Source of the DNA: a virus
Strand: one strand, 5' to 3'
Length of the DNA stretch: 34,048 bases
Virus record (IMG/VR): IMGVR_UViG_3300042691_029452
Location: 1 to 34,048 of that record
Part shown: piece after piece, positions 1-15,168 of the stretch
How positions within the stretch are numbered: position 1 is the stretch's first letter
Layout of the letters: each line of letters starts with the position of its first letter
Position numbers and translations under genes: made by a program
Notes under the pieces: generated by a model
The model's database searches: none
What the model saw: the letters and a program-made list of their open reading frames with translations, nothing else
Told to the model about the DNA's origin: nothing

Positions 1-841
1 TCTTTCTCCGCGACATCATACCAATACCAACTAAACCAACAATCATCATAAGATATGTAGACGGTTCGGGTACCACAGTCGTGTTTGGGAGTCGGTCAAA
101 ATTGGTATTGAGAACTTGTGTTCCATTACTTTCAACAATCACGTTATCAACAAACCCGTCGAACTTATAGGGCCATTGGCTGCCCAATCCAACCCCTACA
201 CCCATAACTTGCTTATCACCATAACAGGAAACGATTTGACTAATGGTGAGAGCTTGAACGCCACCACCCCATACGGGTAGTGTGTTAGTTGAACAGGGAT
301 TAGCAGATAAACTATATCCAGCTTCATTACGATACCAGAAATTTCCATTAATCATTTCAGACGTTTGCCAACTGTCCACGTAACTCAAATCGTTATTGAT
401 GGGACGATTAAAATAATTTTCCCATACAATTTCCGTGTTGTCATCAAAAAACACACGAAAGGCTGGTGACTTATACTTCCAATCATAGAGTTGAATTCCA
501 TCCTTGGTGATATCTGCGTCCCAATTCGGATTGGAACTGCGAAACCAATCAAAACTCAAACTGGTTAGGTTGGACAATGCACCCCAGTTGGTATCTGCAT
601 ACCGATAGGCAAACACCCAATCTTCCATCTTGCCCGTGGTGTGTAACTGAAGCGATGCGTCGCCTACATCACCAAACCCATAGCGAGGCTTTGCGCTAGT
701 AACCGTAGCGTTTCCGTTGCCTTGAATAACAGTATACCACCCAAGATCTTTTTGCACAAGGTTGTTTTGTGAAACCACTTGAGCATTTGCTACTGTTGCA
801 GTAAACGCAAGGGCAAGAACTGCGACCATAATTTTTTTCAT
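1..841 (-). CDS. Exported PEP-CTERM sorting-domain protein (3' end cut by window edge)
   Basis: Open for 280 codons from ATG at 841 to the left edge with no stop, preceded by a strong AAGGAG site. Residues 1-20 form a classic signal peptide ending ANA, with Q21 as the likely first mature residue. Residues 256-280 read VVPEPSTY, then a hydrophobic stretch rich in Leu, Met, Ile and Gly, then SRRK: the tripartite PEP-CTERM sorting signal (PEP motif, membrane helix, basic tail). In bacteria this signal is recognised by exosortase (EpsH) and sends proteins to the cell surface or exopolysaccharide. The middle is Trp/Tyr/Asn-rich and looks like an extracellular beta-rich domain; its ligand cannot be named. 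It starts 9 bases after the stop of the phage-type gene at 851-1366, so it sits in a phage operon. Only the last few residues, if any, are missing. The sorting call is firm; the role during infection is unknown. Confidence 0.9.
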   Translation of the reverse strand, partial: MKKIMVAVLALAFTATVANAQVVSQNNLVQKDLGWYTVIQGNGNATVTSAKPRYGFGDVGDASLQLHTTGKMEDWVFAYRYADTNWGALSNLTSLSFDWFRSSNPNWDADITKDGIQLYDWKYKSPAFRVFFDDNTEIVWENYFNRPINNDLSYVDSWQTSEMINGNFWYRNEAGYSLSANPCSTNTLPVWGGGVQALTISQIVSCYGDKQVMGVGVGLGSQWPYKFDGFVDNVIVESNGTQVLNTNFDRLPNTTVVPEPSTYLMMIVGLVGIGMMSRRK

Positions 842-850
842 AAATTCTCC

Positions 851-1366
851 TTAGTCCCAAAGTCCTTCGTAATATTTTCCAAAAAGACGAAACCCGTTGG
901 TAATACGTTCTTGATACTTTGCCCGACCTTCCCAATCACATTCTCCTTCGGTTTTCCAACGGATTGGACTGATTTCTGCCCGTGAGAACCCTGGCATGAT
1001 CACTCCCGTTTCAAACGGATTATTCCAATCAATTTCGGGCTTGACCTTCCAGAACTGATCTTCCCAATCAATGAGCTTACTTTCAAATGCAAAAATCATT
1101 TCATCCATTACGTAGTCCCACCGCTTGAAATGATTCTCATCCACTTGGTGTTCGCCCACCAACTTTTCCACACGGAGTTCTTCGGGAACATCTTCCATGT
1201 CAACGTCGGGTGCTCCGTGTTGCACTGAACGTAACTGTTTCAGCATCGGGACGACGATGTGAGCAAGAGTATTATCCATGCTCCATGTATCCCACGGATC
1301 AATACGAACAGAAACCTTTTGCTCCTTATCAGGATTTTTTGGGTATCTACCAATATAGACTTTCAT
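851..1366 (-). CDS. Conserved-type phage hypothetical protein (171 aa)
   Basis: Soluble 171-residue protein rich in Trp and acidic residues, with a GGAG site 7 bases before ATG at 1366. It opens MKVYIGRYPKN, followed by a segment with KVSVRIDPWDTWSMDNTLA. This wording recalls a protein found in many marine T4-like phages whose function is not known; that is memory of the family, not a search. No catalytic motif or membrane segment is seen. It lies between a tRNA and the PEP-CTERM gene on the same strand and is probably co-transcribed with both. Confidence 0.8.
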   Translation of the reverse strand: MKVYIGRYPKNPDKEQKVSVRIDPWDTWSMDNTLAHIVVPMLKQLRSVQHGAPDVDMEDVPEELRVEKLVGEHQVDENHFKRWDYVMDEMIFAFESKLIDWEDQFWKVKPEIDWNNPFETGVIMPGFSRAEISPIRWKTEGECDWEGRAKYQERITNGFRLFGKYYEGLWD

Positions 1367-1386
1367 ACGCTATCTCCAGTAACAGA

Positions 1387-1468
1387 GGACGGAGCCGGAT
1401 TTGAACCGGCGTGGGATTTCTCCAAAGGTTTTGCAGACCCGTGCTTTCAGCCACTCAGCCATCCGTCC
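1387..1468 (-). tRNA. tRNA-Cys (anticodon GCA) with class II-like variable arm
   Basis: 82-nt cloverleaf read on the minus strand. The 7-bp acceptor stem is GGACGGA/TCCGTCC, the D-stem is GCT/AGC, the anticodon loop is CTGCAAA giving GCA, and the T-arm is GCCGG-TTCAAAT-CCGGC. The base after the acceptor stem is U73, the usual discriminator of tRNA-Cys (bacterial tRNA-Ser normally has G73). The variable region is 14 nt with a GGA-GAAA-TCC hairpin, and the D-arm looks like tRNA-Ser, so the body is class II while the anticodon and discriminator say Cys. The anticodon stem is weak (one C-U mismatch and one G-U pair). CCA is not encoded. Serine charging cannot be excluded. Confidence 0.8.
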
Positions 1469-1470
1469 AT

Positions 1471-1644
1471 TTATTTTTTTATAATAAACGTTTTAAAATC
1501 ATACTTCTCTTCAACTATCTTTTGCAGATTAACAGAAGCCTCTTCTAAAGTCAATGCCTCTGTGCAAATTGTTCGTAATAGTCCCTCGTGTGGAGGGAGA
1601 TCTTGCCTATACACCTCAAAGCAGTATGTTAATAACTTTTCCAT
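1471..1644 (-). CDS. Small hypothetical protein (57 aa)
   Basis: The start MEKLLTYCFEVY at 1644 is preferred because a longer upstream reading would run through the tRNA-Gly gene. The Shine-Dalgarno site is weak (GAG). The product is mixed-charge, probably helical, with no membrane segment and no motif I recognise. It fills the space between tRNA-Gly and tRNA-Cys and ends 3 bases before the 5' end of the tRNA-Cys gene. Its position between two RNA genes on one transcript suggests it is released by RNase processing. Confidence 0.5.
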   Translation of the reverse strand: MEKLLTYCFEVYRQDLPPHEGLLRTICTEALTLEEASVNLQKIVEEKYDFKTFIIKK

Positions 1645-1666
1645 ATTTTTCTCGGCAAACGGTAAA

Positions 1667-1739
1667 GCGGATGGCCGGGCTTGAACCGGCGACCTCAACT
1701 TTGGCAAAGTTGCGCTCTAGCCATCTGAGCTACACCCGC
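1667..1739 (-). tRNA. tRNA-Gly (GCC)
   Basis: 73-nt cloverleaf on the minus strand: acceptor GCGGGTG/CATCCGC, D-arm GCTC/GAGC, anticodon arm CAACT-TTGCCAA-AGTTG with anticodon GCC, and T-arm GCCGG-TTCAAGC-CCGGC. CCA is not encoded. The 5' end overlaps the last 10 bases of the metallopeptidase gene, so maturation of the tRNA would cut that messenger at its 3' end. Confidence 0.95.
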
Positions 1740-2230
1740 GTTGTTTTATTTCTACTATGTGATTCTTGTTTTGTTTCGTTTCTTGTATGAAAGCTTTCAA
1801 ATACCAAATCTAAATCGCCATATCCCTCTTCACTGAGACGTTCCTGAACGATGTCACATGCTAGTGTAGCGAGTATTTTTTCTAGATTGGTTACTAAACT
1901 TTCATCTAACATCCGAGTGTGTTCTAACTTTTGTGGATCTTTTTTACATAACTGTTCTGCCCACGTAGCAAGATTCCACGTCAAACAGTGGGAGAGTTCA
2001 TGAATTGCGGTGCTGATAATTTCATAATCATTATAACTTTTTAATGTGTTTAAATTTAGTCGTATAATAGCTTGTTTGTATTCCGGCCATGTTTCACAAT
2101 CGGCGGAAGCCTTCATACTTCTAGAATATTTTACTACAATTCTCCAATCATCTAACTTTAACCACGGCTGAAGAATTTCTATGGTTTTGGCAAATAACAC
2201 TTTTTTTGTTATACGTTTCTTTTTTGCCAT
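1730..2230 (-). CDS. HExxH metallopeptidase-like (SprT/zincin-type) protein
   Basis: 166-residue protein with the zinc-metallopeptidase signature HELSH at residues 77-81, set in a helix (STAIHELSHCLTW) after a likely beta-strand region. This arrangement matches small zincin/SprT-like proteins found in phages. A third zinc ligand is not obvious; acidic residues follow about 30-45 positions later. The start MAKKKR at 2230 is chosen because GGAGAG lies at ideal spacing; a TTG four codons upstream overlaps that site. The C-terminus is basic and polar and overlaps the tRNA-Gly gene by 10 bases. The substrate is unknown and activity is inferred only from the motif. Confidence 0.65.
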   Translation of the reverse strand: MAKKKRITKKVLFAKTIEILQPWLKLDDWRIVVKYSRSMKASADCETWPEYKQAIIRLNLNTLKSYNDYEIISTAIHELSHCLTWNLATWAEQLCKKDPQKLEHTRMLDESLVTNLEKILATLACDIVQERLSEEGYGDLDLVFESFHTRNETKQESHSRNKTTRV

Positions 2231-2251
2231 ACCACTCTCCAATTAAGGTAT

Positions 2252-2330
2252 GCGCTCAGAGGGAGTTGAACCCCCACGGTTACCCGCCAGATCCTAAGTC
2301 TGGTGCGTCTGCCAGTTCCGCCATGAGCGC
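2252..2330 (-). tRNA. tRNA-Leu (UAG)
   Basis: 79-nt class II tRNA on the minus strand: acceptor GCGCTCA/TGAGCGC, anticodon arm CCAGA-CTTAGGA-TCTGG with anticodon UAG, a short variable arm, and a T-arm with the GGTTCAA motif. The discriminator is A73, as expected for Leu. CCA is not encoded. The gene lies 22 bases upstream of the metallopeptidase start and 3 bases after the stop of the small membrane protein. Confidence 0.95.
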
Positions 2331-2333
2331 GTT

Positions 2334-2531
2334 TTACAGTTCTTCTGTGCTATCTAAAACCTTAAGTATCAGTTCCTGATCATTTGGTTTACAATTATTA
2401 TAAATATTCATTAATACTAATTCATAGGACCAAGATCTAGTAAAAAGCTTTCTATTATACTCTTTCTGTTTTAAATAAAGATATAATAAAATACTAATTA
2501 TAACTGTTTCTAATATTAATAGTATAATCAT
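2334..2531 (-). CDS. Small membrane protein (65 aa)
   Basis: N-terminal hydrophobic helix of about 18 residues (MIILLILETVIISILLYLYL) followed by a charged cytoplasm-type tail ending DSTEEL. A GGAGAG site lies 3 bases before ATG at 2531. It is the first gene of the leftward operon and is transcribed away from the divergent promoter palindrome at 2578-2595. No family is recognised. The small size, early position and single membrane helix fit many phage host-interaction proteins, but no function can be read from the sequence. Confidence 0.6.
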   Translation of the reverse strand: MIILLILETVIISILLYLYLKQKEYNRKLFTRSWSYELVLMNIYNNCKPNDQELILKVLDSTEEL

Positions 2532-2577
2532 TTGCTCTCCGTTTGGTTCTCATAAGAACTAATTATGAAAAAAGGTT

Positions 2578-2595
2578 TTGTCAAGCCCTTGACAA
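2578..2595. promoter_or_regulatory. Perfect 18-bp palindrome carrying back-to-back TTGACA boxes
   Basis: TTGTCAAG, 2-base spacer CC, CTTGACAA. Each arm contains a consensus -35 hexamer TTGACA, one facing each way, between the leftward tRNA operon and the rightward early genes. The rightward one has a good -10 box; the leftward one has only a weak candidate (TAGTTC at 17-bp spacing). Confidence 0.6.
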
Positions 2596-2617
2596 GCGGT
2601 TCATATATATGTAACAT
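2589..2617 (+). promoter_or_regulatory. Sigma-70-type promoter for the rightward early genes
   Basis: TTGACA at 2589-2594, a 17-bp spacer, and TAACAT at 2612-2617. The predicted start is near 2624, giving a leader of about 20 bases before the gene at 2647, whose GAGG site lies inside that leader. The -35 box is the right arm of the 18-bp palindrome. Confidence 0.65.
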
Positions 2618-2646
2618 TCACGAACCTTTTCATTGAGGAAAATGGT

Positions 2647-2871
2647 ATGTCGGACAGATTAGATAAATATACGGTATTTTTAAAGCTTACCGTATGGGGC
2701 GAGTCGCCCGAAGATGCATTGGATTACGCAACTAGCGCAATTGATACATCTGATATGCTATCCCAAGATGGCATCGTAGGCATTGAGCTTATTGATGATG
2801 TGGACAGCATTGAACTGGTTGATGATGAGGATGAAACCGATGATGACGGAGAAGACGAAGAAGATTATTAA
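2647..2871 (+). CDS. Small highly acidic protein (74 aa)
   Basis: First gene after the rightward promoter, with GAGG upstream of ATG. The N-terminal half is an ordinary mixed sequence (DKYTVFLKLTVWGESPEDAL) that could form a small alpha/beta fold. The last 25 residues are almost all Asp and Glu (ELVDDEDETDDDGEDEEDY). Such tails mimic nucleic acid in several phage inhibitors of DNA-binding proteins, but here that is only a suggestion. The 3' end overlaps the next reading frame by about 29 bases. Confidence 0.7.
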   Translation: MSDRLDKYTVFLKLTVWGESPEDALDYATSAIDTSDMLSQDGIVGIELIDDVDSIELVDDEDETDDDGEDEEDY

Positions 2872-3085
2872 TGATGTAATTTTTTGGAGCGGTATTGCCC
2901 TGACAATGGTCAGTGTATTCTATGGAATTCGTTATTATAACGAACAAACCGAGGTTGCTAGCGCAGTACGCCAAAAGTCAATTTGTCCCGCATTGCTGAG
3001 TATTAGTCGTTCCGCACGGGATACGCTGATCGTCATGAAAGCAGAGCCGTTGTGCAATGGTTTCGTTTTAGATAGTTTAAAGTAA
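2843..3085 (+). CDS. Small single-helix membrane protein (80 aa)
   Basis: Frame-shifted overlap with the acidic gene. The start MTEKTKKI at 2843 (ATG at 2840 is an alternative) is preceded by GAGG about 14 bases away. A hydrophobic helix (IFWSGIALTMVSVFYGI) lies near residues 12-28, followed by a polar tail with two cysteines. A single transmembrane segment with a periplasmic or cytoplasmic tail is likely. The family is not recognised. The exact start is uncertain because the longer open frame above it is a shadow of the acidic gene. Confidence 0.5.
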   Translation: MTEKTKKIINDVIFWSGIALTMVSVFYGIRYYNEQTEVASAVRQKSICPALLSISRSARDTLIVMKAEPLCNGFVLDSLK

Positions 3086-3123
3086 AGGTTACTATTTATT
3101 AGTAAGCTTTATTGGAGATGTAT

Positions 3124-3324
3124 ATGAACAATAACAAACGCCGTAGTAGTTTAGGTAGCCCTTTATGTTCAACATTTGTTTTTCTATGTGGTTCTATAAC
3201 AGGCGCATACTTCGGACACACGACGGGTATAAAACACGATATACTGGTTATTGGCATTGCAACTCTAGTGTTTCACCTAACACAAATTACTCCGATAAAA
3301 TTGTTATATAAAAAATCAAAATAA
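3124..3324 (+). CDS. Small membrane protein (66 aa), two predicted helices
   Basis: Start MNNNKRRSS at 3124, with GGAG 6-7 bases upstream; this is preferred over the ATG at 3112, which lies before that site. A basic N-terminus precedes a Gly/Ala-rich helix (residues about 16-35) and a second hydrophobic helix (DILVIGIATLVFHLTQI) before a Lys-rich end. This could be a holin-like or host-envelope protein, but neither is supported beyond topology. Confidence 0.55.
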   Translation: MNNNKRRSSLGSPLCSTFVFLCGSITGAYFGHTTGIKHDILVIGIATLVFHLTQITPIKLLYKKSK

Positions 3325-3372
3325 TTAAGGTTATATAAAATTAAATAACTTTATTATTGATGAGAATATACA

Positions 3373-3750
3373 ATGATATTGGAAAGTAACATAGGTGAAT
3401 TTACATCAGCAGTATATGGCACGGTAGGTGCCTTGGTGGCGGGGGCGGGAATCCAGTTCTTCAATAGACTAGCTGATAAGAAAAAGGATCAGTTAGACGA
3501 GCATATAGCACTCAGAAAAGAACTACGTGAAGAACTGGATTCCGTAAAACAAGAATTGCATTTGTTACAAGAATCACTTGACGAATGGAAGCAAAAGTAT
3601 TATGCTCAAGTAGAAATAACAAATGAGTTAAAAGTTGAAGTGGCAAAATTAACTGATGAATTATCTGAATATAAACGAATCTCAGGAATTCATCATTCTA
3701 ATGAAATCATAACGAATAACGGGTGGTTTGATTTAGAAGAAAAAGACTAA
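3373..3750 (+). CDS. Membrane-anchored coiled-coil protein (125 aa), spanin-like architecture
   Basis: An N-terminal Gly/Ala hydrophobic segment (residues about 12-30) is followed by a long heptad-like coiled coil rich in Lys, Glu and Leu (residues about 34-105), then a short polar end (NGWFDLEEKD). One helix plus a long coiled coil is the layout of inner-membrane spanins (Rz) and of some phage membrane organisers. No overlapping outer-membrane lipoprotein (Rz1-type lipobox) is seen in the other frames, which weakens the spanin reading. It lies 21 bases upstream of another one-helix protein of similar design. Confidence 0.6.
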   Translation: MILESNIGEFTSAVYGTVGALVAGAGIQFFNRLADKKKDQLDEHIALRKELREELDSVKQELHLLQESLDEWKQKYYAQVEITNELKVEVAKLTDELSEYKRISGIHHSNEIITNNGWFDLEEKD

Positions 3751-3771
3751 AACTTTTGCGCGGAAGTGTAG

Positions 3772-4215
3772 ATGACAATTACTGAATTGGTTTTGGTAGT
3801 ATCGTGTGTAATTAATATATTGACGTTGATTTTAGCATTTTTATCATTTAAAGAGGGACTGGTATTAAAATCCTCTATAAAAGAACTACAGATTGGTTTG
3901 ATGACGACCTTAAACAAGGTTCATGGATTGGAGCATTTGACTAATAAGATCGGATCAAGTTTTACTGAATTCATAAATATAACAAATAATCTTGTAGACA
4001 AAATGTCGGGTATGTCTAACGGCTCTAGGCACGGACATTTATATAAAACAACAGATGGAAAATATAGTGCAACATCAATTGATGAATTGATAAATAAAAT
4101 AAAAAATGCAAATGAAGAATCGCAGTATTTTTCAGATGAAGAATTAGATAAGCTTCGTAATATGTTTAGTAATGAAGATGATGACGACGATGACTTTTTA
4201 GACAATGAGGCATAA
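3772..4215 (+). CDS. Membrane protein with acidic C-terminus (147 aa)
   Basis: A GGAAG site precedes ATG. A strongly hydrophobic N-terminal helix (residues 4-26, ELVLVVSCVINILTLILAFL) is followed by a polar region with Asn/Thr, a SATSIDELINKIKNA segment and a tail with six consecutive Asp. The layout (membrane anchor, linker, acidic tail) parallels the acidic early protein at 2647. The stop TAA overlaps the next start (TAATG), suggesting translational coupling. No family is recognised. Confidence 0.6.
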   Translation: MTITELVLVVSCVINILTLILAFLSFKEGLVLKSSIKELQIGLMTTLNKVHGLEHLTNKIGSSFTEFINITNNLVDKMSGMSNGSRHGHLYKTTDGKYSATSIDELINKIKNANEESQYFSDEELDKLRNMFSNEDDDDDDFLDNEA

Positions 4216-4376
4216 TGTTACTCAACGATAAAAAAATAAAATCTTTAATAAAAAAGATTCAGAAAAAGTGTGAGCAAAAAACTTCTCCTAAAAAAGAAGA
4301 GAAAGAACAATTTGTCGAACAAAATGCATCGGATGAATTGTTTAATGAAATGAAGAAGCTTCCATTTACAGAATAG
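4215..4376 (+). CDS. Small lysine/glutamate-rich protein (53 aa)
   Basis: The ATG overlaps the upstream stop (TAATG). The product begins MLLNDKKIKSLIKKIQKK and becomes Lys/Glu-rich with an acidic end, entirely soluble and probably helical. It is supported by the coupled start and by the same AT-rich composition as its neighbours. No motif and no known family can be given. Confidence 0.5.
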   Translation: MLLNDKKIKSLIKKIQKKCEQKTSPKKEEKEQFVEQNASDELFNEMKKLPFTE

Positions 4377-4400
4377 TTTTTCTTTTATTAACAATTTTTA

Positions 4401-4733
4401 ATGTTTTTAGAAAATTTTGGTGATGGATGGAAATCTAAGTTTGAGTATAAAATTAATTTATTACTTAAACATTTTCCCGAAGTCGTTATCGAAAATATTA
4501 TTCGATACCAAGGGATGTTAAGAATTAATGCCCGTGCCCTTGACAAAGACATACAATATCTTGTAAATTGTGTTGCATATAAGATTGAAAGAGAATCTGC
4601 CACCACGTGTGAGGCGTGTGGAGCAAATGCAAAAAGGGTAACAGATAAAACCTTCTTAACAGAACCAAAATGCTTGTGTTGGAAGTGCTATGCCATAGAA
4701 ATAGATTCTATGGAATTGCGTAGCAATAAGTAA
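4401..4733 (+). CDS. Zinc-ribbon-type small protein (110 aa)
   Basis: Four cysteines in two pairs (CEACG near residue 70, CLCWKC near residue 92) form a probable zinc ribbon behind an N-terminal helical region (NALDKDIQYLVNCVAY-like wording, residues 45-62). Similar one-zinc proteins with CxxCG followed by a terminal Cys pair are frequent in phages and are thought to bind nucleic acid or protein, with no assigned reaction. No clear Shine-Dalgarno site precedes ATG at 4401. Confidence 0.65.
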   Translation: MFLENFGDGWKSKFEYKINLLLKHFPEVVIENIIRYQGMLRINARALDKDIQYLVNCVAYKIERESATTCEACGANAKRVTDKTFLTEPKCLCWKCYAIEIDSMELRSNK

Positions 4734-4755
4734 TTTATAATTAAATGGAGTCTTC

Positions 4756-4992
4756 ATGTTTTATACAGAAGAGGATGTGCAGCCAGCAGTTGATATGGCA
4801 GCAGAGCTTTTTGGCATCGTGGGAAACATTTCACATGAGCGTAATGCTATAAAGAATGTAATTATTACTAGTAATAAATTTGGTCATTTGTGGTATGGAG
4901 ACATCGATGATACGATGGAATCAATTCGCAGTAAGTGCATGAATATTGCGCAGAAGTTCGATTTGACAGTTTCTCCAATGAATATGGTATAA
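4756..4992 (+). CDS. Small hypothetical protein (78 aa)
   Basis: GGAG lies 5 bases before ATG. The product is a compact, acidic, soluble protein (MFYTEEDVQPAVDMAAELFG) with no membrane segment, cysteine pair or catalytic motif. It is the last gene before the new promoter at 5003, so it probably ends the first early transcription unit. No family is recognised. Confidence 0.6.
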   Translation: MFYTEEDVQPAVDMAAELFGIVGNISHERNAIKNVIITSNKFGHLWYGDIDDTMESIRSKCMNIAQKFDLTVSPMNMV

Positions 4993-5002
4993 AAGTCACC
5001 CC

Positions 5003-5031
5003 TTGACAAACGTAGAAGATCGAGTTATTAT
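5003..5031 (+). promoter_or_regulatory. Strong sigma-70-type promoter
   Basis: TTGACA at 5003-5008, exact 17-bp spacer, TATTAT at 5026-5031. The predicted start near 5038 gives a leader of about 74 bases before the gene at 5112. It is the closest match to consensus in the window. Confidence 0.75.
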
Positions 5032-5038
5032 TAATGTG

Positions 5039-5068
5039 TTGTCCCTGATGAGTAAGGCATCTAGACAA
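5039..5068 (+). promoter_or_regulatory. Imperfect stem-loop at the very 5' end of the 5112 messenger
   Basis: TTGTC(5039-5043) pairs with GACAA(5064-5068) and GATG(5047-5050) with CATC(5058-5061), separated by a small internal loop. It would form right at the predicted 5' end of the transcript and could stabilise the messenger or serve as an operator. Only the pairing is seen; the role is inferred. Confidence 0.35.
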
Positions 5069-5111
5069 TCTTGAATACAACCTTACAATAAATTTAACAA
5101 AGAGGTTATGT

Positions 5112-5399
5112 ATGGCTACTGATTTCAACAAGCGTTATACCGAAGCAGAGTTTTCTCGCACTGCAAGCCAGATGCGTAGCTGGCTGATGAGCCTTGCGCG
5201 TAAGCGTAGCACTCGGACGGTAACTGCTGACGATGCACACAAGTATCTTGATCGGCAAGGCATTCACCCACTCCGCGTTCGCACTCGTCTTCGCTTTATC
5301 AACTCCGTTCTTCGTTCGCCCAACTTCTCGTGTGCCGGTCGGACAAGTTCGTCCCGCCCCGCTGCAAAGGGCCGCTCCATCACGGAATGGACTATCTAA
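5112..5399 (+). CDS. Small basic, probably nucleic-acid-binding protein (95 aa)
   Basis: Arg/Lys/Ser-rich protein with a winged-helix-like segment (TVTADDAHKYLDRQGI, residues about 36-51) followed by RVRTRLRFINSVLR and a basic tail ending GRSITEWTI. A helix-turn-helix or winged-helix fold is plausible, and similar small proteins occur in aquatic T4-like phages without assigned function. Base composition is clearly richer in G and C than its neighbours, and the gene stands alone between a near-consensus promoter and a hairpin terminator, which suggests high early expression. Confidence 0.7.
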   Translation: MATDFNKRYTEAEFSRTASQMRSWLMSLARKRSTRTVTADDAHKYLDRQGIHPLRVRTRLRFINSVLRSPNFSCAGRTSSSRPAAKGRSITEWTI

Positions 5400-5436
5400 C
5401 TAAATTGATAGTTTAAAAATAAAGCAGGATACTTAT

Positions 5437-5475
5437 CAGAATAGAAATGGGAATAATTTTCTCATTTCTATTCTG
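5437..5475 (+). terminator. Hairpin, probable terminator after the 5112 gene
   Basis: The 13-bp perfect stem CAGAATAGAAATG / CATTTCTATTCTG is extended by G-U and G-C pairs, with a loop of about 9 bases, followed by GCTTTATAT. The U-run is short, so termination may be partial and allow read-through into the Gre gene at 5497. Confidence 0.6.
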
Positions 5476-5496
5476 GCTTTATATCTGAGATTATTG

Positions 5497-5958
5497 ATGA
5501 ATCCACTTGAAAAAGAAATAGAACGACTGAAATATGAATTAGCTGTCACCTTTCCAGAAGAAATAAAAAATGCTTTAGAACTCGGTGATTGGGGAGATAA
5601 TTCGGAATTTTCTGAAATAATTGCTAGACAAAATTACACCAGTATTAGACTTAAACAATTAATTGATAGATTAAATGCGTATAAGTCTATTGATTTAAAG
5701 ACTATATCAAAAGATAAAATTGGGCTGGGATCTGTGATAAAAGTTTTACATCAACAATCTAATGCAATTACAATTTATAAAATTGTTGCAGTTGAGATAT
5801 CAGATACTGAAAATTCTGAACATGAAGAAGTCACCGTCAATTCTCCTATAGGAAAGGCTCTTTATGATAAGTGTGTTGGTGATGAAGTTACGGTCTATTT
5901 GCCTTCTGGAAAGAAAACCTATAAAATATTAGAGATTAAGACCGTTCATGATTGTTAG
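5497..5958 (+). CDS. greA: GreA/GreB-type transcription elongation (transcript cleavage) factor
   Basis: 153 residues, close to the 155-160 usual for Gre factors. The N-terminal half (1-75) is a helical hairpin with the tip sequence GDWGDNSEF at residues 30-38, which lines up with the GreA tip GDLxENAEY. The acidic pair D31 and D34 corresponds to the residues that hold the catalytic magnesium in the polymerase active site. The C-terminal half (about 78-153) is the FKBP-like domain, including EVTVNSPIGKALYDKCVGDE, which matches the GreA signature VNSPIARGLIGK. Gre proteins enter the RNA polymerase secondary channel and rescue backtracked complexes. ATG at 5497 is used; an upstream TTG has no support. 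A phage-carried copy could aid late or middle transcription by host polymerase. Confidence 0.85.
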   Translation: MNPLEKEIERLKYELAVTFPEEIKNALELGDWGDNSEFSEIIARQNYTSIRLKQLIDRLNAYKSIDLKTISKDKIGLGSVIKVLHQQSNAITIYKIVAVEISDTENSEHEEVTVNSPIGKALYDKCVGDEVTVYLPSGKKTYKILEIKTVHDC

Positions 5959-5964
5959 AAGTCA

Positions 5965-5993
5965 TTGACTTTTGATTCATTGATATGTATATT
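5965..5993 (+). promoter_or_regulatory. Sigma-70-type promoter for the membrane protein and tmRNA
   Basis: TTGACT at 5965-5970, 17-bp spacer, TATATT at 5988-5993. The predicted start near 6000 gives a leader of about 22 bases with GGAGAG before ATG at 6022. The same transcript would run into the tmRNA gene. Confidence 0.65.
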
Positions 5994-6021
5994 TAGGTAA
6001 CTAACTTACTGGAGAGCGGTT

Positions 6022-6240
6022 ATGCACAAGAGCACGGTTTCCAAACAACATATTGTAGTAGATTTTGGACCATCTACTATCATCATGCTATCAGAAATAG
6101 TGTTGATTGGGTTAAAATTGATGAATTATATACCGTATTCTTGGACATTAGTGCTCTCTCCTATCATATTAGTTATTTTGGGAGCATCGACTATACTATT
6201 TTTTACTCTAATAAAACTCATAAAAGATAATCTTTTTTAG
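6022..6240 (+). CDS. Small two-helix membrane protein (72 aa)
   Basis: A polar N-terminus is followed by two hydrophobic helices (residues about 19-36 and 41-66) separated by a short turn NYIPYS. GGAGAG precedes ATG. The last base of its stop codon TAG is the first base of the tmRNA acceptor stem, so the two are on one transcript and 5' processing of the tmRNA would trim the messenger. Two-helix small proteins of this kind include holins, but no holin-specific feature is seen. Confidence 0.6.
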   Translation: MHKSTVSKQHIVVDFGPSTIIMLSEIVLIGLKLMNYIPYSWTLVLSPIILVILGASTILFFTLIKLIKDNLF

Positions 6241-6578
6241 GGCCTGACAGGTTTCGACGGGATGTAGATGATTGAGCTTTGTGTCTCGTTTGGTAAGACG
6301 AGTAAAACAGACCAAATAAATTTAACTGGCAACTATAACTTAGCCCTCGCTGCTTAATCGCAGCCTGATGAATTAATCTGATACGACCGCATAGGGTTAA
6401 TTCATTCATAGATGTGGTCTAGCCTTGATAGGAACCGTATTCAAGGTGATGTTTCGGTTCTATATTCAGTTCGCGTTTGTTAGTTGATGAAAACTGAATG
6501 AATATAAACAACTGACTACACACATAAAACCTTAATAGGAAGCAGTCTCGGACGTGGGTTCGAATCCCACCAGGTCCA
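6240..6578 (+). ncRNA. ssrA: Transfer-messenger RNA (tmRNA) encoding tag GNYNLALAA
   Basis: The tRNA-like ends close on each other: GGGCCTG at 6240-6246 pairs with CAGGTCC at 6571-6577 and A6578 is the discriminator. The 5' part continues with the tmRNA signature GGTTTCGACGGGAT, and the 3' part has a T-arm GTGGG-TTCGAAT-CCCAC. The mRNA-like part begins at GGC (6328) and reads G-N-Y-N-L-A-L-A-A then TAA at 6355-6357; the ALAA end is the ClpXP-type degradation signal. A conserved-type A is found 4 bases before the resume codon. A stem follows the tag stop (GCTGC/GCAGC) and the remaining bases could hold the pseudoknots. The length, 339 nt, is normal. CCA is not encoded. It would free stalled ribosomes with SmpB, which is not encoded in this window. 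Confidence 0.95.
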
Positions 6579-6616
6579 TTTAAAACGGTTGATGTAATAT
6601 AATTTGGGAGATTTCT

Positions 6617-6895
6617 ATGTTTAAAATTATACTACATCATATTAGGAAATGGTTTCAAAAACCTGATGTGGTTGAAGAAATTTATGCAGAAAACATTGAC
6701 AGATTGTATACCAAGTGTTTAGTATTACTTCACAGAGCATCATCACTTGCACAACTTTATGCAGCGCGTCGGGTCATGAAAAAACATGAAGAAGAAGTGC
6801 TAAGACACAACAGTTTACCGTGGATGATTGATCAGCAGGAAAAGTTAAACAAACTCTGGATTCAAAAGTATAAACTTTGGAAAGTTAGGGACTAA
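6617..6895 (+). CDS. Small basic helical hypothetical protein (92 aa)
   Basis: GGGAG precedes ATG. The product is Lys/Arg/His-rich and predicted helical, with segments such as SLAQLYAARRVMKKHEEEV and a C-terminal KLWIQKYKLWKVRD. No membrane helix, cysteine pair or catalytic motif is found. It starts 39 bases after the tmRNA and its stop is adjacent to the next start (TAACATG). Confidence 0.6.
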   Translation: MFKIILHHIRKWFQKPDVVEEIYAENIDRLYTKCLVLLHRASSLAQLYAARRVMKKHEEEVLRHNSLPWMIDQQEKLNKLWIQKYKLWKVRD

Positions 6896-6896
6896 C

Positions 6897-7286
6897 ATGC
6901 TAAACCGCCGAATCAAGAAGCTGTCTAAGTCGATGGTTACTAAAATCACTGGTCGCCAATACCTTACATGTTCTCAGTGTAACACCGAAGAAGTAGAGGT
7001 TCCCGCTGACGTGTCAGCGGTTACCTGTGCACATTGTGTTCAAAAGATGATCGCCCCGCCAGAAGAAGTGCGAGAAAAGTCTGATAAGCCGCGTGGTTGG
7101 CATTTCAAGGTATATTTCGAACACAATGGGCTGGTATATTCTAAGGGACAAGAGATTACTGATCCAGAAGATATTGCGCGGTTGAAGAAAGAATTAAAAA
7201 AGTCTAAACAATTAGCCAAGGCAACAACGGTAAAGCCCAAGGCTACAGTAAAAAGAGGACGTAAGAATGCTCGTTCTTCCAAATAG
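6897..7286 (+). CDS. Zinc-ribbon protein with basic tail (129 aa)
   Basis: Residues 25-46 hold two Cys pairs (CSQC and CAHC), a zinc ribbon. A central block contains KPRGWHFKVYFEHNG and VYSKGQEITD, wording I associate with a conserved but unassigned protein of aquatic T4-like phages. The last 35 residues are Lys/Arg/Ala/Thr-rich (KATVKRGRKNARSSK) and would bind nucleic acid. The gene overlaps the next one by 20 bases. Confidence 0.7.
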   Translation: MLNRRIKKLSKSMVTKITGRQYLTCSQCNTEEVEVPADVSAVTCAHCVQKMIAPPEEVREKSDKPRGWHFKVYFEHNGLVYSKGQEITDPEDIARLKKELKKSKQLAKATTVKPKATVKRGRKNARSSK

Positions 7287-7584
7287 AAGTGCTGTTGTAT
7301 GGGATAGATTTTTAACGGAAAATAAAGTATTAGTATACAAGTATATTGTGCGAGAGATCAAAAAGAATTTGTTTGACGACAAAGACAAAATTGATCTCTT
7401 TAAGTTTGATGACAATACCATGCATGCATGGATACCAAAAAATAAAGTATTACAAACGTTACACGAGTCCATCAAAATATTTATTTCCGCTGAAGAGTAT
7501 GAATATGCCAGAAAAGCGGATAATATAATAAAACAATATTACATTGATAAACTTCTTAAAGATGTAAATAAACCAGAGGAATGA
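7267..7584 (+). CDS. Hypothetical protein with UvrB/C-like motif at its end (105 aa)
   Basis: Starts inside the 3' end of the preceding gene, with GAGG upstream. Residues about 78-95 (FISAEEYEYARKADNIIKQ) resemble the short UVR motif that pairs UvrB with UvrC and is also seen in Clp-adaptor-type proteins. The rest is a mixed alpha/beta sequence with no recognised domain. A protein-protein contact role is the most that can be inferred. Confidence 0.6.
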   Translation: MLVLPNRSAVVWDRFLTENKVLVYKYIVREIKKNLFDDKDKIDLFKFDDNTMHAWIPKNKVLQTLHESIKIFISAEEYEYARKADNIIKQYYIDKLLKDVNKPEE

Positions 7585-7587
7585 TTT

Positions 7588-8106
7588 ATGGGATTTGAAA
7601 CAATACGATGCGTTGTTCTCAATTCCACATATGAACCGATATCAGTAGTCACTTCTAAACGGGCATTGCTGTTGATCCTTGAAGGAAAAGCAATCGTTGT
7701 TGAAGAACATCCGTATGTAGAAGTGAGATCGCCGTCCGTCACTTTCAAAGCTCCGGTGATGGTTGCATTAAAGGAATATGTGAGAAACCGAAAGATTTTT
7801 AAAACTACAGCAACTCTTACTCAACGAAATTTGTTCATCCGTGACGGGTATACGTGCCAGTATTGCAATCGTCATAAGTCACAGCTTCGCAATTTTGAGT
7901 TTTTGACGCGAGATCACATCATTCCCGAATCACGTGGCGGTAAGAACACATGGGAAAACTTGGTAACCGCATGCTCCACTTGCAATAACAAAAAAGCAGA
8001 TTATAATTTAGAAGATACAAAACTGACCTTGCAAAAGAAGCCAGTGATGCCTACATTGTTTGAACTGTGGATGAAGACAAGTCACCGACGACTTGTAAAC
8101 GTTTAA
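7588..8106 (+). CDS. HNH endonuclease
   Basis: 172 residues. The N-terminal part has LNSTYEPISVV and KRALLLILEGKAIVVE, typical of a widespread bacterial and phage HNH family. The nuclease domain has zinc pairs C90-x2-C93 and C129-x2-C132 around the catalytic DH at 109-110 (RDHIIPESRGGKNTWENL), with Asn at the usual positions after it. It is a free-standing gene with a good ribosome site (AGAGGA), not inside another gene, so it need not be a homing enzyme. Roles proposed for the family include DNA cleavage in packaging or host genome attack; which applies here is unknown. Confidence 0.85.
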   Translation: MGFETIRCVVLNSTYEPISVVTSKRALLLILEGKAIVVEEHPYVEVRSPSVTFKAPVMVALKEYVRNRKIFKTTATLTQRNLFIRDGYTCQYCNRHKSQLRNFEFLTRDHIIPESRGGKNTWENLVTACSTCNNKKADYNLEDTKLTLQKKPVMPTLFELWMKTSHRRLVNV

Positions 8107-8128
8107 AATTTAAAAAAAGGTTATTATT

Positions 8129-8758
8129 ATGTTTACGATTGAAAACACCGAAGAAAAGACCGAAGAAAACTATAAGAAGTTCATGGAGTATATTGAGGCA
8201 GATTCTCGTGCAGAAAATCTGAAGAAGTTATATCAGATATTCCATGATGAACTGATTAGTGCACCGGCATCTGCTCGCACATATTTTCATAACTGTTTTC
8301 CTGGTGGTTATCTTGACCACATTCTTCGTGTCACGGATATTGCACTGAAGATGGCTGGGCTGTATAAGTCAATGGAAGGACATGTAGACTTTACAAAGGA
8401 AGAACTTATCTTTTCCGCATTACACCATGACCTTGGAAAGCTTGGTGATGAGAACGGTCCTTATTACGTAGATCAAGATTCCGACTGGCACCGGAAGCGC
8501 GGTGAATTATACAAGTATAATGATAATCTTCAATACTTTAAGGCTCCAGAGCGAGGATTGGTTATTCTCCAGAGACACGGTATTACCGTAACCGATACTG
8601 AGTGGCTGACAATCAAGCTTTCGGATGGTCTTTATTGTGAAGGAAATGACTCATATCTTAAAAATAATGGTATGAAAACGAATCTCCCATACATCATTCA
8701 TTGGGCAGATAATATGGCAACGCGAATTGAAAAAACCAAAAACGCGGTCGCTTTTTAA
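8129..8758 (+). CDS. HD-domain phosphohydrolase-like protein
   Basis: 209 residues. Metal-binding His/Asp residues of the HD superfamily are visible: H64 in GYLDHILRV, H99-H100-D101 in ALHHDLGKLGD, and a later conserved LSDGLY segment. HD enzymes remove phosphate from nucleotides or phosphodiesters. The sequence resembles an HD protein repeatedly seen in aquatic T4-like phages, of unknown substrate. Its position among nucleotide and repair genes is consistent with a role in nucleotide metabolism. Confidence 0.8.
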   Translation: MFTIENTEEKTEENYKKFMEYIEADSRAENLKKLYQIFHDELISAPASARTYFHNCFPGGYLDHILRVTDIALKMAGLYKSMEGHVDFTKEELIFSALHHDLGKLGDENGPYYVDQDSDWHRKRGELYKYNDNLQYFKAPERGLVILQRHGITVTDTEWLTIKLSDGLYCEGNDSYLKNNGMKTNLPYIIHWADNMATRIEKTKNAVAF

Positions 8759-8779
8759 AGTAATAAAATATATATAATG

Positions 8780-8800
8780 GAGGATGTCTTCGGAGTCCTC
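8780..8800 (+). promoter_or_regulatory. UUCG-tetraloop hairpin upstream of hsp20
   Basis: GAGGA at 8780-8784 pairs with TCCTC at 8796-8800, and C8788-G8793 closes a TTCG tetraloop at 8789-8792. It lies in the 91-base region between the HD gene and hsp20 and hides a GGAGG sequence in its stem. It could be a processing or stability element; no U-run follows, so it is not a typical terminator. Confidence 0.4.
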
Positions 8801-8849
8801 AACATCGTTACCCAACAGTGGGAGCGATACTTTATACAGGAGAACACTT

Positions 8850-9350
8850 ATGACAAAGTGGACAGTGCAGCGGGTTCCCGCATCGGTTATTGAGAAAGAA
8901 TTGGAATTCAACCGTGATAATTTGCTAAACACGTTTGATAGGTTTTTTGATGACGCGTTTCGTGGTCAATTCCCTGATCTTTATAAGGGATTTGGAATTG
9001 AACCGTTCAGTAAGGCGGCATATCCAAAGGTTAATGTGTTGTCGTTTGATGACAAAGTTCAAATTGAAGCAGAAATTGCAGGATATAACAAAGAGGACAT
9101 CTCAATTCAGATTGAGGATGATGTTTTAAGTATTGTTGGAAAGACTGCACAGCAAAGTGAGCAAACTGATAAATCCGTTTATCTACTTCGTGAATTGAAG
9201 CGTAGCTCTTTCAGTCGTTCTTTTAGGCTCACCGACCAGCTTGACGCCGATAAGGTGGACGCAGCATTCAACAATGGGTTACTTCATATTACTATTCCAC
9301 GAAAGGTTCAAACTAAGGAGAACAAAGCGAAGACTGTGGTAATCAAGTAA
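8850..9350 (+). CDS. hsp20: Small heat-shock protein (Hsp20/alpha-crystallin)
   Basis: 166 residues. The alpha-crystallin domain runs from about residue 57 to 155, with PKVNVLSFDDKVQIEAEIAG at its start and an AFNNGLLHITIPRK segment near its end; the latter matches the conserved GxLxIxxP-type signature. The C-terminal tail ends KAKTVVIK and carries an I-x-I-like end. These ATP-independent chaperones hold unfolding proteins. The start MTKWTVQ at 8850 is used because AGGAG lies 7 bases upstream; the same frame extends 22 codons further but without spacing for a ribosome site. Hsp20 genes are known in aquatic T4-like phages. Confidence 0.9.
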   Translation: MTKWTVQRVPASVIEKELEFNRDNLLNTFDRFFDDAFRGQFPDLYKGFGIEPFSKAAYPKVNVLSFDDKVQIEAEIAGYNKEDISIQIEDDVLSIVGKTAQQSEQTDKSVYLLRELKRSSFSRSFRLTDQLDADKVDAAFNNGLLHITIPRKVQTKENKAKTVVIK

Positions 9351-9378
9351 TTAAAACTTAAAAAAATGGAGGTCTAGT

Positions 9379-9435
9379 ATGTGTGGATGTAATCATTGCA
9401 ATTGCGGCTGTTCCACCATTAACATAACTGACTAA
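9379..9435 (+). CDS. 18-residue cysteine-rich microprotein or leader peptide
   Basis: Reads MCGCNHCNCGCSTINITD then TAA. Five Cys and one His fall within residues 2-11, in a C-x-C-x-H-C-x-C-x-C pattern that would bind metal as a miniature metallothionein. GGAGG sits 6 bases before ATG, an excellent ribosome site, which is the main reason to call it. It could instead be a cysteine-sensing leader peptide (five Cys codons in eleven), because its 3' end forms the left arm of the hairpin at 9421-9463. Too short for any family match. Confidence 0.55.
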   Translation: MCGCNHCNCGCSTINITD

Positions 9436-9463
9436 CGGGGAGGTGATCCTTAACAGTTATGTT
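9421..9463 (+). promoter_or_regulatory. Hairpin presenting a near-perfect anti-16S sequence in its loop
   Basis: AACATAACTG (9421-9430) pairs perfectly with CAGTTATGTT (9454-9463). The 23-base loop contains GGAGGTGATC (9439-9448), an exact 10-base complement of the usual 16S rRNA 3' end. The left arm codes the last residues of the Cys-rich microprotein. The only ATG just downstream (9459) is in the right arm and opens a 3-codon frame, so no ordinary gene uses this ribosome site. Confidence 0.55.
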
Positions 9464-9496
9464 CAACTAGTAACCCTTATTACTATGGAGAATCAG

Positions 9497-9528
9497 CACG
9501 ACTAGGGAGCACACGTTCTCTAGTCGTG
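9497..9528 (+). promoter_or_regulatory. Stable hairpin before the membrane protein gene
   Basis: The 9-bp perfect stem CACGACTAG / CTAGTCGTG is extended by G-C, A-T and G-U pairs to about 13 bp with a 6-base loop. There is no U-run behind it, so it is more likely an RNA stability or processing element than an intrinsic terminator. It lies 16 bases before the ATG at 9545. Confidence 0.5.
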
Positions 9529-9544
9529 TTCACTTGAGACATAT

Positions 9545-10585
9545 ATGAATACACGTAGCTCATTGATCGCCGTTACATCACTCACTGCAACGTTTGTTGC
9601 ACTGTGTGCCGCCTTATTTTCTGTTACTGGAATAGCAAAACTATTTGCCGGAGCAGCATTGAGTGCGGGTATAATGGCAGCAGCACTAGAACTTGGAAAA
9701 ATTGTCAGTATTTCTTTTTTATATCAATATTGGACAGAAATCCCAAAAACTCTTAAGTATTATTTATCAGTTGCTGCGGTAGTATTAATGGTTATTACGT
9801 CGGCTGGTATTTATGGTTATTTGTCATCTGCATATGCCAAGGTTGCTGCTACTCCATTGACGTTGAATGCGGATATTGAAACAATGGAAGGGCGAGTCAA
9901 AAGTTTAGAGCAAGATATTAAACGAAAAGAAGATAGACTTAATCAATTAATAAATCTTCGGTCCCAACAAGAAACTCGTTTGGATAATATGGTATCCAAA
10001 TCGACAACGGGAAATAGTTCTACTATTCGCTCGGCACAAAATGCACTGACTGCAGCAGATAAAAATGTTACTGCGTTGCAAAGTGAAATATCCAACCTTT
10101 CAGCCCAGAGGGATAGTCTCAATGGAATCAGTATTAACAAACGTGTGCAAATTGAAACAAATGGTGATATCGGAACTTTCGTCTATATTGCAAAAGTATT
10201 GGGCACTGACCTTGATACGGTGGTCAAATGGTTCACGCTCGTCATTGTTTTAGTTTTTGATCCGTTAGCGGTTGCGCTTGTTGTTGCAGTTAATTTTTTA
10301 ATTAAAAACAAATCAAAACATGACATTGTTTTGCCTGAATTAACGCAGGAACCGGAAATTGTGGTGGGAGAATCTACAGAAGCGGAAATTCAGCCACTAG
10401 ATTCGGTAGTTGAAGAGCCATATAAAATATATACTGAACCTGAGCAACCCATAGTTCTACCAAATGATCCACAATATTATACTCGTGGAGATTTTGACTG
10501 GTCGAATGAACGCATGTGGAAAACAAATCCTAGTGCAGTTGAGTATTATAATAGAGAAATATTACCAAGAAGAATGGGATCTTGA
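9545..10585 (+). CDS. Multi-helix membrane protein with central coiled coil (346 aa)
   Basis: Hydrophobic helices lie near residues 6-30, 33-60 and 75-97, followed by a long coiled coil (about 105-205, Glu/Lys/Gln-rich, probably periplasmic). A fourth helix follows near 230-254 (WFTLVIVLVFDPLAVALVVA), then a Pro/Glu-rich cytoplasmic tail ending WKTNPSAVEYYNREILPRR. The layout suggests a membrane complex with a large extra-cytoplasmic stalk. Similar proteins appear in other aquatic T4-like phages as hypothetical membrane proteins. The function is unknown; a role in envelope remodelling or exclusion is only conjecture. Confidence 0.7.
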   Translation: MNTRSSLIAVTSLTATFVALCAALFSVTGIAKLFAGAALSAGIMAAALELGKIVSISFLYQYWTEIPKTLKYYLSVAAVVLMVITSAGIYGYLSSAYAKVAATPLTLNADIETMEGRVKSLEQDIKRKEDRLNQLINLRSQQETRLDNMVSKSTTGNSSTIRSAQNALTAADKNVTALQSEISNLSAQRDSLNGISINKRVQIETNGDIGTFVYIAKVLGTDLDTVVKWFTLVIVLVFDPLAVALVVAVNFLIKNKSKHDIVLPELTQEPEIVVGESTEAEIQPLDSVVEEPYKIYTEPEQPIVLPNDPQYYTRGDFDWSNERMWKTNPSAVEYYNREILPRRMGS

Positions 10586-10610
10586 CATTTTATTGGTAAA
10601 CTGTTAGATT
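10582..10610 (+). promoter_or_regulatory. Promoter for uvdE (TTGACA ... TAGATT)
   Basis: TTGACA at 10582-10587, 17-bp spacer, TAGATT at 10605-10610. The -10 region CTGTTAGATT is identical to that of the primase promoter at 33184-33212. The leader before ATG at 10638 is about 20 bases. The -35 box overlaps the stop codon of the upstream membrane protein. Confidence 0.7.
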
Positions 10611-10637
10611 TAATACAACTCAACCAAGGTTACGTTT

Positions 10638-11534
10638 ATGTCGCATAACGTCGGTTATTGCTGCATCAATCTTACTCTGCAAAAGTCAGACAATATCACG
10701 ACAAATCGTGATATGATTCAACGCACATTTCTTGAGCGCGGTGTTTCATATGCGTCTGAGCTTGCTTTGCAAAATTCACGTGATTTAATCAAAATACTAG
10801 AATGGAATGCCGCAAACAATATCAAAGTGTTTCGCGTTTCTTCTGGTATTTTTCCGTGGAATGCAAAATACGAATTGACAGATCTTCCCGATTATGATGC
10901 AATTGCACATAATCTTAAGATTGCCGGTGACGTTGCACTTAGAACGAATCAGCGATTGTCGGCACACCCTGACCACTTTGTCAAGTTAGGATCTGAAAAG
11001 CCAACTGTCGTAGACAATTCTATTCATGATCTTGAGCACCACTCGGCTGTATTTGATCTCATGGGGCTTCCTGCATCACACTATGCTCCACTCAATATTC
11101 ACGTTGGTATGAACTTTTCCACTGACACAGTAAACCGTTGGCTTGCTGCATATGATCGCCTTTCTGATAATTGTAAAAAGCGTCTCGTTGTAGAAAATGA
11201 CGATAAGTCATCCGCATTTTCTGTTCGGCAACTGTATTACCATTTATACAAAGCTATTCATATACCGATCACGTTTGATTACTTTCATCATCAGTTTCAT
11301 GACGATGGCTGGATTGAAAAAGATGCACTAATTACTGCAGCATTTACGTGGGATGTTAGACCACTATTTCATTATAGTGAATCCAAAAACTTAAATGAAA
11401 ATGTATCTGGTAATCCACGAGCACACGCAGATTATGTGTTTAGCCGAATCAATGATTATGGTATGAATATTGATGTTGATCTAGAAGCAAAAGCAAAAGA
11501 ACTCGCCCTTTTCAAATATAGGAGTTTAACATGA
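10638..11534 (+). CDS. uvsE: UV-damage endonuclease (UvdE/UvsE family)
   Basis: 298 residues, the usual length for UvsE. Diagnostic blocks are present in order: NVGYCCINLTL at the N-terminus, FRVSSGIFPW, LSAHPDHFVKLGS with the metal-binding His, a DLEHHSAVFDLMGL helix, NIHVGM, LVVENDDKSSAFSV with metal-binding Glu and Asp, and ITFDYFHHQFHDDG with a His cluster. The fold is a TIM barrel holding manganese that nicks DNA 5' to cyclobutane dimers and 6-4 photoproducts. It has its own promoter, and its stop overlaps the glycosyltransferase start in an ATGA junction. A repair gene like this suits a phage of sunlit water. Confidence 0.92.
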   Translation: MSHNVGYCCINLTLQKSDNITTNRDMIQRTFLERGVSYASELALQNSRDLIKILEWNAANNIKVFRVSSGIFPWNAKYELTDLPDYDAIAHNLKIAGDVALRTNQRLSAHPDHFVKLGSEKPTVVDNSIHDLEHHSAVFDLMGLPASHYAPLNIHVGMNFSTDTVNRWLAAYDRLSDNCKKRLVVENDDKSSAFSVRQLYYHLYKAIHIPITFDYFHHQFHDDGWIEKDALITAAFTWDVRPLFHYSESKNLNENVSGNPRAHADYVFSRINDYGMNIDVDLEAKAKELALFKYRSLT

Positions 11535-12160: not shown

Positions 12161-12162
12161 CC

Positions 12163-13191: not shown

Positions 13192-13198
13192 GGAATTT

Positions 13199-13723: not shown

Positions 13724-13995
13724 TGAATGTATTGATTATTGTGCTAAGTATAGCAGTTGTTGTATTAGGTTACACAACATGGAATTTATTGAAAAAAATT
13801 GAATTTTATGAGCAAAGTGTTGAAGAATTTTACTCTTCGTTGAGTATAGTTCTTCACACTATGCGCTCATTAGATGAGAAAAAAATGTTTGAAACAGACG
13901 ACGAAGTGGGTGAAGTGTTTTCACAGTTAGTGGAGATGCTCAACACACTTCGTCCATTACTTTATGGGATACAACTTAATGAAGAAGAAAACTGA
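13723..13995 (+). CDS. Small membrane protein with helical cytoplasmic part (90 aa)
   Basis: The N-terminal helix (residues 2-20, NVLIIVLSIAVVVLGYT) is followed by an amphipathic region with ETDDEVGEVFSQLVEMLNTL. The phrase DEVGEVFSQLVE recalls a small conserved protein encoded beside late sigma or recombination genes of T4-like phages; its function is not known. The start overlaps the lysozyme stop, and the 3' end overlaps the sigma gene. Confidence 0.65.
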   Translation: MNVLIIVLSIAVVVLGYTTWNLLKKIEFYEQSVEEFYSSLSIVLHTMRSLDEKKMFETDDEVGEVFSQLVEMLNTLRPLLYGIQLNEEEN

Positions 13996-14743: not shown

Positions 14744-14748
14744 CTATT

Positions 14749-14756
14749 TATAAATT
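14749..14756 (+). promoter_or_regulatory. Candidate T4-type late promoter (TATAAATT)
   Basis: The 8-mer differs at one base from the T4 late consensus TATAAATA. It sits just after the sigma-like gene and about 25 bases before the first gene of the late block at 14781, and no -35 box precedes it, as expected of gp55-dependent promoters. It is followed by TAGAC, also seen behind the candidate at 29379-29394. Confidence 0.55.
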
Positions 14757-15167: not shown

Positions 15168-15168
15168 T

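Follow-up and report, generated by a model that had tools for sequence, protein, structure and literature searches.

A predicted PEP-CTERM surface protein encoded by a large tailed phage and probably captured from Gemmatimonadota

Introduction

Known phage morons that alter the host envelope and keep out other phages use lipoproteins, membrane proteins or O-antigen enzymes, and to our knowledge none of them uses exosortase sorting. The PEP-CTERM/exosortase (EpsH) system tracks exopolysaccharide production (PMC1569441), and floc-promoting PEP-CTERM proteins are known in activated-sludge bacteria, where they hold exopolysaccharide to cells (PMC9850573). Proteins of the family TIGR03118 with an exosortase-type C-terminus have been listed among horizontal transfers involving viruses (PMC11003980).

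In this study, we analysed a viral fragment of 34 kb, the whole of its IMG/VR record (G000; 34,048 nucleotides, hereafter the window), and compared a PEP-CTERM protein encoded at its edge with these systems. The protein resembles members of the PEP-CTERM/EpsH system (PF07589/TIGR02595, PMC1569441) in its signal peptide, PEP motif, hydrophobic helix and basic tail, and its relatives occur in genomes with many PEP-CTERM proteins, several of them with a detected exosortase. It differs in being phage-encoded, in following a phage gene within an operon, not forming a single-gene operon, and in the lack of an exosortase in the phage contigs searched. It is also like the PEP-CTERM protein of a Gemmatimonadota fusA-wecB/YaiO locus (L160, L183, L188, L350 and L351), with a homologous mature domain and tail and the SQWP/SRWP-VDNV motif, whereas the copies in phages are shorter, have a low GC content and stand apart from polysaccharide genes; L155 also belongs to this Gemmatimonadota homologue group, its context not having been seen. 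With PepA (NF033554, PMC9850573) it shares the PEP-CTERM tail and a suspected polysaccharide-matrix role, but only the tail aligns and the full model is not met. The TIGR03118 transfers (PMC11003980) are likewise cellular proteins with an exosortase-interaction tail on virus contigs; unlike the window protein, they belong to another family, listed in passing and of unknown function. As in phage morons that change the host envelope, we found a cargo gene outside the structural block with a predicted action at the host surface. The criterion for a moron is met, the gene lying on phage DNA (by synteny with the related contig G002) and being absent at the same site in the related locus L009 and in other phrog_11543 loci. 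In the open literature, which we covered incompletely so that novelty is provisional, no description of phage PEP-CTERM proteins as a class was found, the nearest report being PMC11003980. The new element is the probable source of the phage protein, namely Gemmatimonadota PEP-CTERM proteins.

Our main reading, to which we assign a probability of roughly 0.62, is that the phage has captured a Gemmatimonadota matrix protein which, displayed by the host exosortase, remodels or masks the surface of the infected cell and hinders further adsorption; surface placement, binding and benefit are inferred.

The gene and its sorting signal

The following features were annotated at the start of the window.

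2..841, minus strand: phage-borne PEP-CTERM protein gene; 280 codons present, the last few codons and the stop lying past the contig edge
782..841, minus strand: signal peptide, residues 1-20; predicted cleavage between ANA and Q, read from the sequence by eye
92..781, minus strand: mature domain, residues 21-250; predicted beta-sandwich like carbohydrate-binding modules, homologous to Gemmatimonadota proteins
2..73, minus strand: PEP-CTERM sorting signal, residues 257-280; VPEP motif, hydrophobic helix and basic tail (PF07589 and TIGR02595)
847..852, minus strand: Shine-Dalgarno AAGGAG, overlapping the TAA stop of the upstream gene; from sequence
851..1366, minus strand: upstream gene phrog_11543, 171 aa, function unknown (E 2.5e-49)

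The open reading frame starts with an ATG at 841 on the minus strand and continues for 280 codons to the contig start without a stop. The frame is cut by the contig start, which costs the protein its last few residues; codon 281 starts with A and cannot be a stop, so the protein is incomplete in the window. The C-terminal ends of homologues read RRKKLT and GRKTS, each followed by the stop. The N-terminus, MKKIMVAVLALAFTATVANA followed by Q, has a KK pair, a hydrophobic stretch and an A-x-A site and was read by eye as a Sec signal peptide; this region is variable yet hydrophobic in all homologues. The C-terminus VPEPSTYLMMIVGLVGIGMMSRRK scored 29.0 bits against PF07589 (curated cut-off 20.7; 34.6 bits in the PF07589 genomic search) and 24 bits against TIGR02595 (curated cut-off 16), and the tail thus passed the profile check by which the first-pass annotation could have been refuted. 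That annotation had described complete signals at both ends, and the signal peptide, PEP motif, helix and basic tail were all present, but the protein itself is cut by the contig edge. The window protein did not meet the PEPxxWA-CTERM model NF035944 (28.9 bits against a curated 35) or the flocculation PepA model NF033554 (30.5 bits against 80), to which the tail alone aligns. The PEP-CTERM start lies 9 bases after the phage-type phrog_11543 gene (851-1366), as first annotated. Judging from the overlap of the AAGGAG with the TAA, the PEP-CTERM gene is likely to be translationally coupled to this upstream gene.

The gene lies on phage DNA

Three other IMG/VR contigs encode the whole protein, L003 and L004 at 88% and L005 at 74% identity, and in all four contigs the PEP-CTERM gene stands immediately behind the phrog_11543 gene. 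Since the reading frame recurs at the same place in three other contigs, with its core under selection, it is not a chance one. Contig G002 (53.7 kb, holding L004) and the window share a collinear block of about 30 kb of phage genes (G002 22633-52611, window 2647-31245), including the baseplate genes for gp25 and a gp6-like wedge protein, a GMP reductase/IMPDH-like gene and UvsE. G002 bears the PEP-CTERM gene on the same DNA, at 4743-5591, in a copy 88% identical. Contig G003 likewise has both the gene and a set of window-collinear genes.

A host contig joined to the phage through misassembly or contamination, named at the outset as the finding that would overturn the claim, would fit the position of the gene at the very edge of the window and the absence from the window, relative to G002 and G003, of about 15.7 kb right behind the neighbouring gene. 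However, G002 and G003 hold the gene together with window-collinear genes, and four contigs have this pair of neighbouring genes. Because G002 is both collinear with the window, through baseplate and other phage genes, and in possession of the gene, misassembly can for practical purposes be excluded, and the protein is phage-encoded, as had been claimed.

The additional stretch of about 15.7 kb (window 1366-1733 against G002 6106-21804) lies between phrog_11543 and an SprT-like gene in G002 and G003 and contains about 20 tRNA genes, a VWA/AAA pair, an NADPH dehydrogenase and a 4HBT thioesterase. The window either has truly lost it by deletion or lacks it through an assembly collapse; the PEP-CTERM finding is unaffected.

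The relatives of the wedge protein belong to Microcystis phage Mel-JY01, Flavobacterium phage immuto and a 484 kb uncultured phage, indicating that the window comes from the genome of a large myovirus. The PEP-CTERM gene and the tail/baseplate block lie on opposite strands; the gene is in a tRNA-rich region, the phage copy sitting between phrog_11543 and the tRNA genes. Behind phrog_11543 in L009, the closest relative without the gene, other genes are found, and a pattern search of 80 phrog_11543 loci returned PEP-CTERM tails only in the clade of the window. INPHARED phages searched with the protein and with a consensus tail gave nothing significant, and a first search for close relatives in genome contigs gave no relatives and only two poor patterns.

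Selection on the gene

We compared the window gene with that of L004. The core had a pN of 0.068 and a pS of 0.70 (dN/dS about 0.04), and dN/dS was about 0.06 for the tail and about 0.31 for the signal peptide. Between L004 and L005 the tail gave 0.21, the tail being short with few sites. All ratios are rough, as dS is near saturation. The strong purifying selection on the core indicates that the gene is in use, and the PEP motif, helix and basic tail are retained in all four copies.

This retention, and the tail dN/dS of about 0.06 and 0.21 in the two comparisons, stand against the idea that the protein is a virion or lysis-module component, such as a sugar-binding decoration, whose signal peptide and PEP-CTERM tail are inherited and unused. 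The location opposite the tail/baseplate block, among tRNA genes, does so as well. Weak structural matches of the protein do include tail-fibre and carbohydrate-acting phage domains, and we consider this idea hardly probable. The gene might also be a recently acquired passenger from the host without a phage function, and its cellular origin in the tree described below is clear. A recent passenger does not agree with strong purifying selection, with 73-88% identity among the phages on saturated synonymous sites, with the fixed position behind phrog_11543, or with a GC content of 43%, far under the 59-66% of the host loci. Conservation refutes the passenger reading in the main, and we rate it as highly improbable.

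Probable origin in Gemmatimonadota

We scanned 84,980 species genomes with the degenerate pattern GxGSxWxxx[FY]xGxVDNV and obtained 39 stretches, among which the SQWP/SRWP form (WP after GSx) was confined to Gemmatimonadota genomes. A phmmer search with the mature domain gave Gemmatimonadota proteins as its best matches (L155, 6e-31; L183, 8e-30; L188, 1.4e-28). At E ≤ 1e-10, matches were present in 16 of 298 Gemmatimonadota genomes (best 7.5e-29, 33-46% identity) and in 2 of 349 Burkholderiales genomes (best 7.3e-19). The mature domains of the phage and Gemmatimonadota proteins are homologous end to end at about 40% identity. In a maximum-likelihood tree, the phage proteins formed one clade (100/100), nested within a Gemmatimonadota clade of 10 rows (100/99) and adjoining a Gemmatimonas MAG (92/86). 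The record of L188 (G007) is titled Candidatus Kuenenia stuttgartiensis, yet the genome groups with Gemmatimonadota, and the title is probably wrong.

Capture of the phage gene from Gemmatimonadota, and with it a Gemmatimonadota host, is the simplest reading and a likely one, resting on the comparison of one gene. The mature-domain homology, the nesting in the tree and the place of the host homologues in a Gemmatimonadota exopolysaccharide locus all point to this host. The claim that the PEP-CTERM tail limits the host to exosortase-bearing bacteria could thus be sharpened to one phylum by the motif scan, phmmer, the phylum-wide samples and the tree. The TYxM-type tail had at first hinted at a betaproteobacterial host, which was rejected, the mature domain being much closer to Gemmatimonadota.

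No CRISPR spacer or prophage tying the phage to Gemmatimonadota was found in the genomes searched, one of the searches being swamped by tRNA matches. Window DNA 14049-34048 gave no spacer against 395 Gemmatimonadota genomes, only PTPTP low-complexity matches and a single weak 79% match elsewhere, and nearly all matches of window 1-20000 were to tRNA genes, which would mask spacers. A Burkholderiales control showed no clear difference, and tRNA similarity did not discriminate.

Host locus, exosortase and predicted fold

We examined the surroundings of the Gemmatimonadota homologues. In genomes with readable surroundings, the homologue lies beside fusA/tuf (L160, L183, L188, L351); it is followed by wecB (UDP-GlcNAc 2-epimerase) in L160, L188 and L350 and by a YaiO-type outer-membrane barrel in L183, L188, L350 and L351. 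In G302 (L350) and G190 (L351) the row continues with a PgaC/IcaA-like GT2 polysaccharide synthase gene and a bactofilin-like one. This GT2 is far under the PgaC equivalog cut-off, and "PNAG-like" denotes resemblance only. Judged by gene content, the host homologues belong to a conserved locus for exopolysaccharide, with wecB, a YaiO porin and a PgaC-like synthase. The wecB, YaiO and GT2 neighbours are absent at the phage copy, as expected of a captured gene.

Between 2 and 17 PEP-CTERM proteins were found in 9 of 10 genomes with a homologue, and of the 7 genomes that hold close homologues, 3 had an exosortase (G006, G007, G010), as did G112 and G190. Not every homologue-bearing genome had one; across the phylum it was detected in 43 of 200 sampled genomes, many of them MAGs, whose incompleteness probably lowers both counts. 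None of the five phage contigs searched contained an exosortase, and as all are fragments, one elsewhere in the phage is not excluded. Since these fragments lack the enzyme, sorting by the host is inferred. A phage protein that relies on a host exosortase, as claimed in the first pass, agrees with the evidence, the tail being accepted by its models.

The mature domain was modelled with AlphaFold2 from 27 sequences as a beta-sandwich (pLDDT 77.5, pTM 0.75); a structure from 3 sequences was discarded (pLDDT 39.5). Foldseek matches in the PDB include an exo-beta-agarase accessory domain, CBM11 and CBM22 (E 4e-6 to 9e-3), with target TM scores of 0.51-0.61 for the CBMs and low whole-query scores of 0.35-0.38. 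No binding residues were identified in the mature-domain model. With the host locus counted too, the family is plausibly one of surface proteins that bind matrix polysaccharide, binding being inferred. Fold and host locus favour a polysaccharide-matrix role among the proposed roles (superinfection exclusion, receptor masking, aggregation), which are themselves inference.

The same surface protein could instead strengthen or rebuild host aggregates (flocs or biofilm), so that infected cells are kept within particles or dense populations of the host, or withstand grazing. On our analysis, altered aggregation is the main rival to surface masking, and PepA-type PEP-CTERM proteins do keep exopolysaccharide attached to the cell and bring back floc formation (PMC9850573). 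The polysaccharide locus of the host homologues and the CBM-like predicted fold would suit it as well. The full-length PepA model, however, is matched by the tail only (30.5 of 80 bits), and clumping of infected cells is no obvious gain for a lytic phage, leaving aggregation possible and rather doubtful.

Under the preferred reading of surface masking, a large tailed phage, probably of Gemmatimonadota, would carry a captured exopolysaccharide-associated PEP-CTERM protein of its host and co-express it with phrog_11543. The observed phage location, conserved PEP-CTERM tail, Gemmatimonadota relationship and selection, and a fold known by prediction, are joined here to inferred steps: Sec export, host exosortase processing, display, polysaccharide binding and benefit. 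Sec would export the protein and its C-terminal PEP-CTERM helix would retain it; the host exosortase would process it and place it on the outer surface, where its carbohydrate-binding-like domain may attach to or coat the host's own matrix polysaccharide. The infected-cell surface would thereby be changed or masked. The most likely benefit would be that the cell and its neighbours stop adsorbing further phages (superinfection exclusion) and that progeny are not caught on the matrix of infected cells. If this is true, phages can borrow the exosortase route, a main sorting route of environmental biofilm bacteria, to alter the exterior of infected cells. It would suggest a part in phage contact for PEP-CTERM proteins, most of which have no known function of their own, and it gives a host guess, Gemmatimonadota, for a large-phage lineage known solely from metagenomes.

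PEP-CTERM genes in other phage lineages

In IMG/VR, two pattern scans gave at least 128 PEP-CTERM C-termini passing a simple tail test, some of which must come from provirus flanks or host DNA. Phage genes surround a PEP-CTERM gene in four other settings. In L090, L122, L106 and L139 it adjoins a phage DNA polymerase (L090 11103-11804, L106 5745-6446). In L134 (3906-4604) it is flanked by neck/tail genes on one side and portal/terminase on the other, runs on the strand opposite to theirs and looks like a classic moron. In L234, L249 and L276 it stands among portal, terminase and major head genes (L234 2831-3577). L263 (12135-12857) and L275 (2518-3171 and 4191-4835), on contigs of 74.7 and 228 kb, have phage-type RNA ligase, metallophosphoesterase or phrog_850 genes as neighbours. 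PF07589 was confirmed for L090, L106 and L134, and the other lineages rest on the tail pattern only. We offer only as a tentative idea, slightly short of even odds, that several unrelated phage lineages display virus-coded exosortase substrates, captured from host polysaccharide loci, and re-coat infected cells against competitors, as a general and undescribed strategy. Because other phage lineages carry such genes, the idea that phages borrow the exosortase route can be tested in cultured hosts.

Other observations on the phage contigs

The window encodes a phage tmRNA at 6240-6578 with the tag GNYNLALAA followed by the stop, and the tag is identical in G002 and G003. A Cys-rich protein with long PTPTPT linkers (22355-24049) is encoded within the tail/baseplate gene block; its G002 homologue, at 937 aa, is far longer and shows poor conservation, a pattern that fits a host-contact protein. 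In L005 (8193-9446), and also in L004, genes for an NAD(P)H dehydrogenase-like protein, a thioesterase (PF03061) and a PQ-loop-like membrane protein lie directly before phrog_11543 and are possible auxiliary metabolic genes. The gene just behind the PEP-CTERM gene of L005, at 11315-12442, codes for a secreted protein that has Big_2 Ig-like domains (PF02368) and may be a second surface protein.
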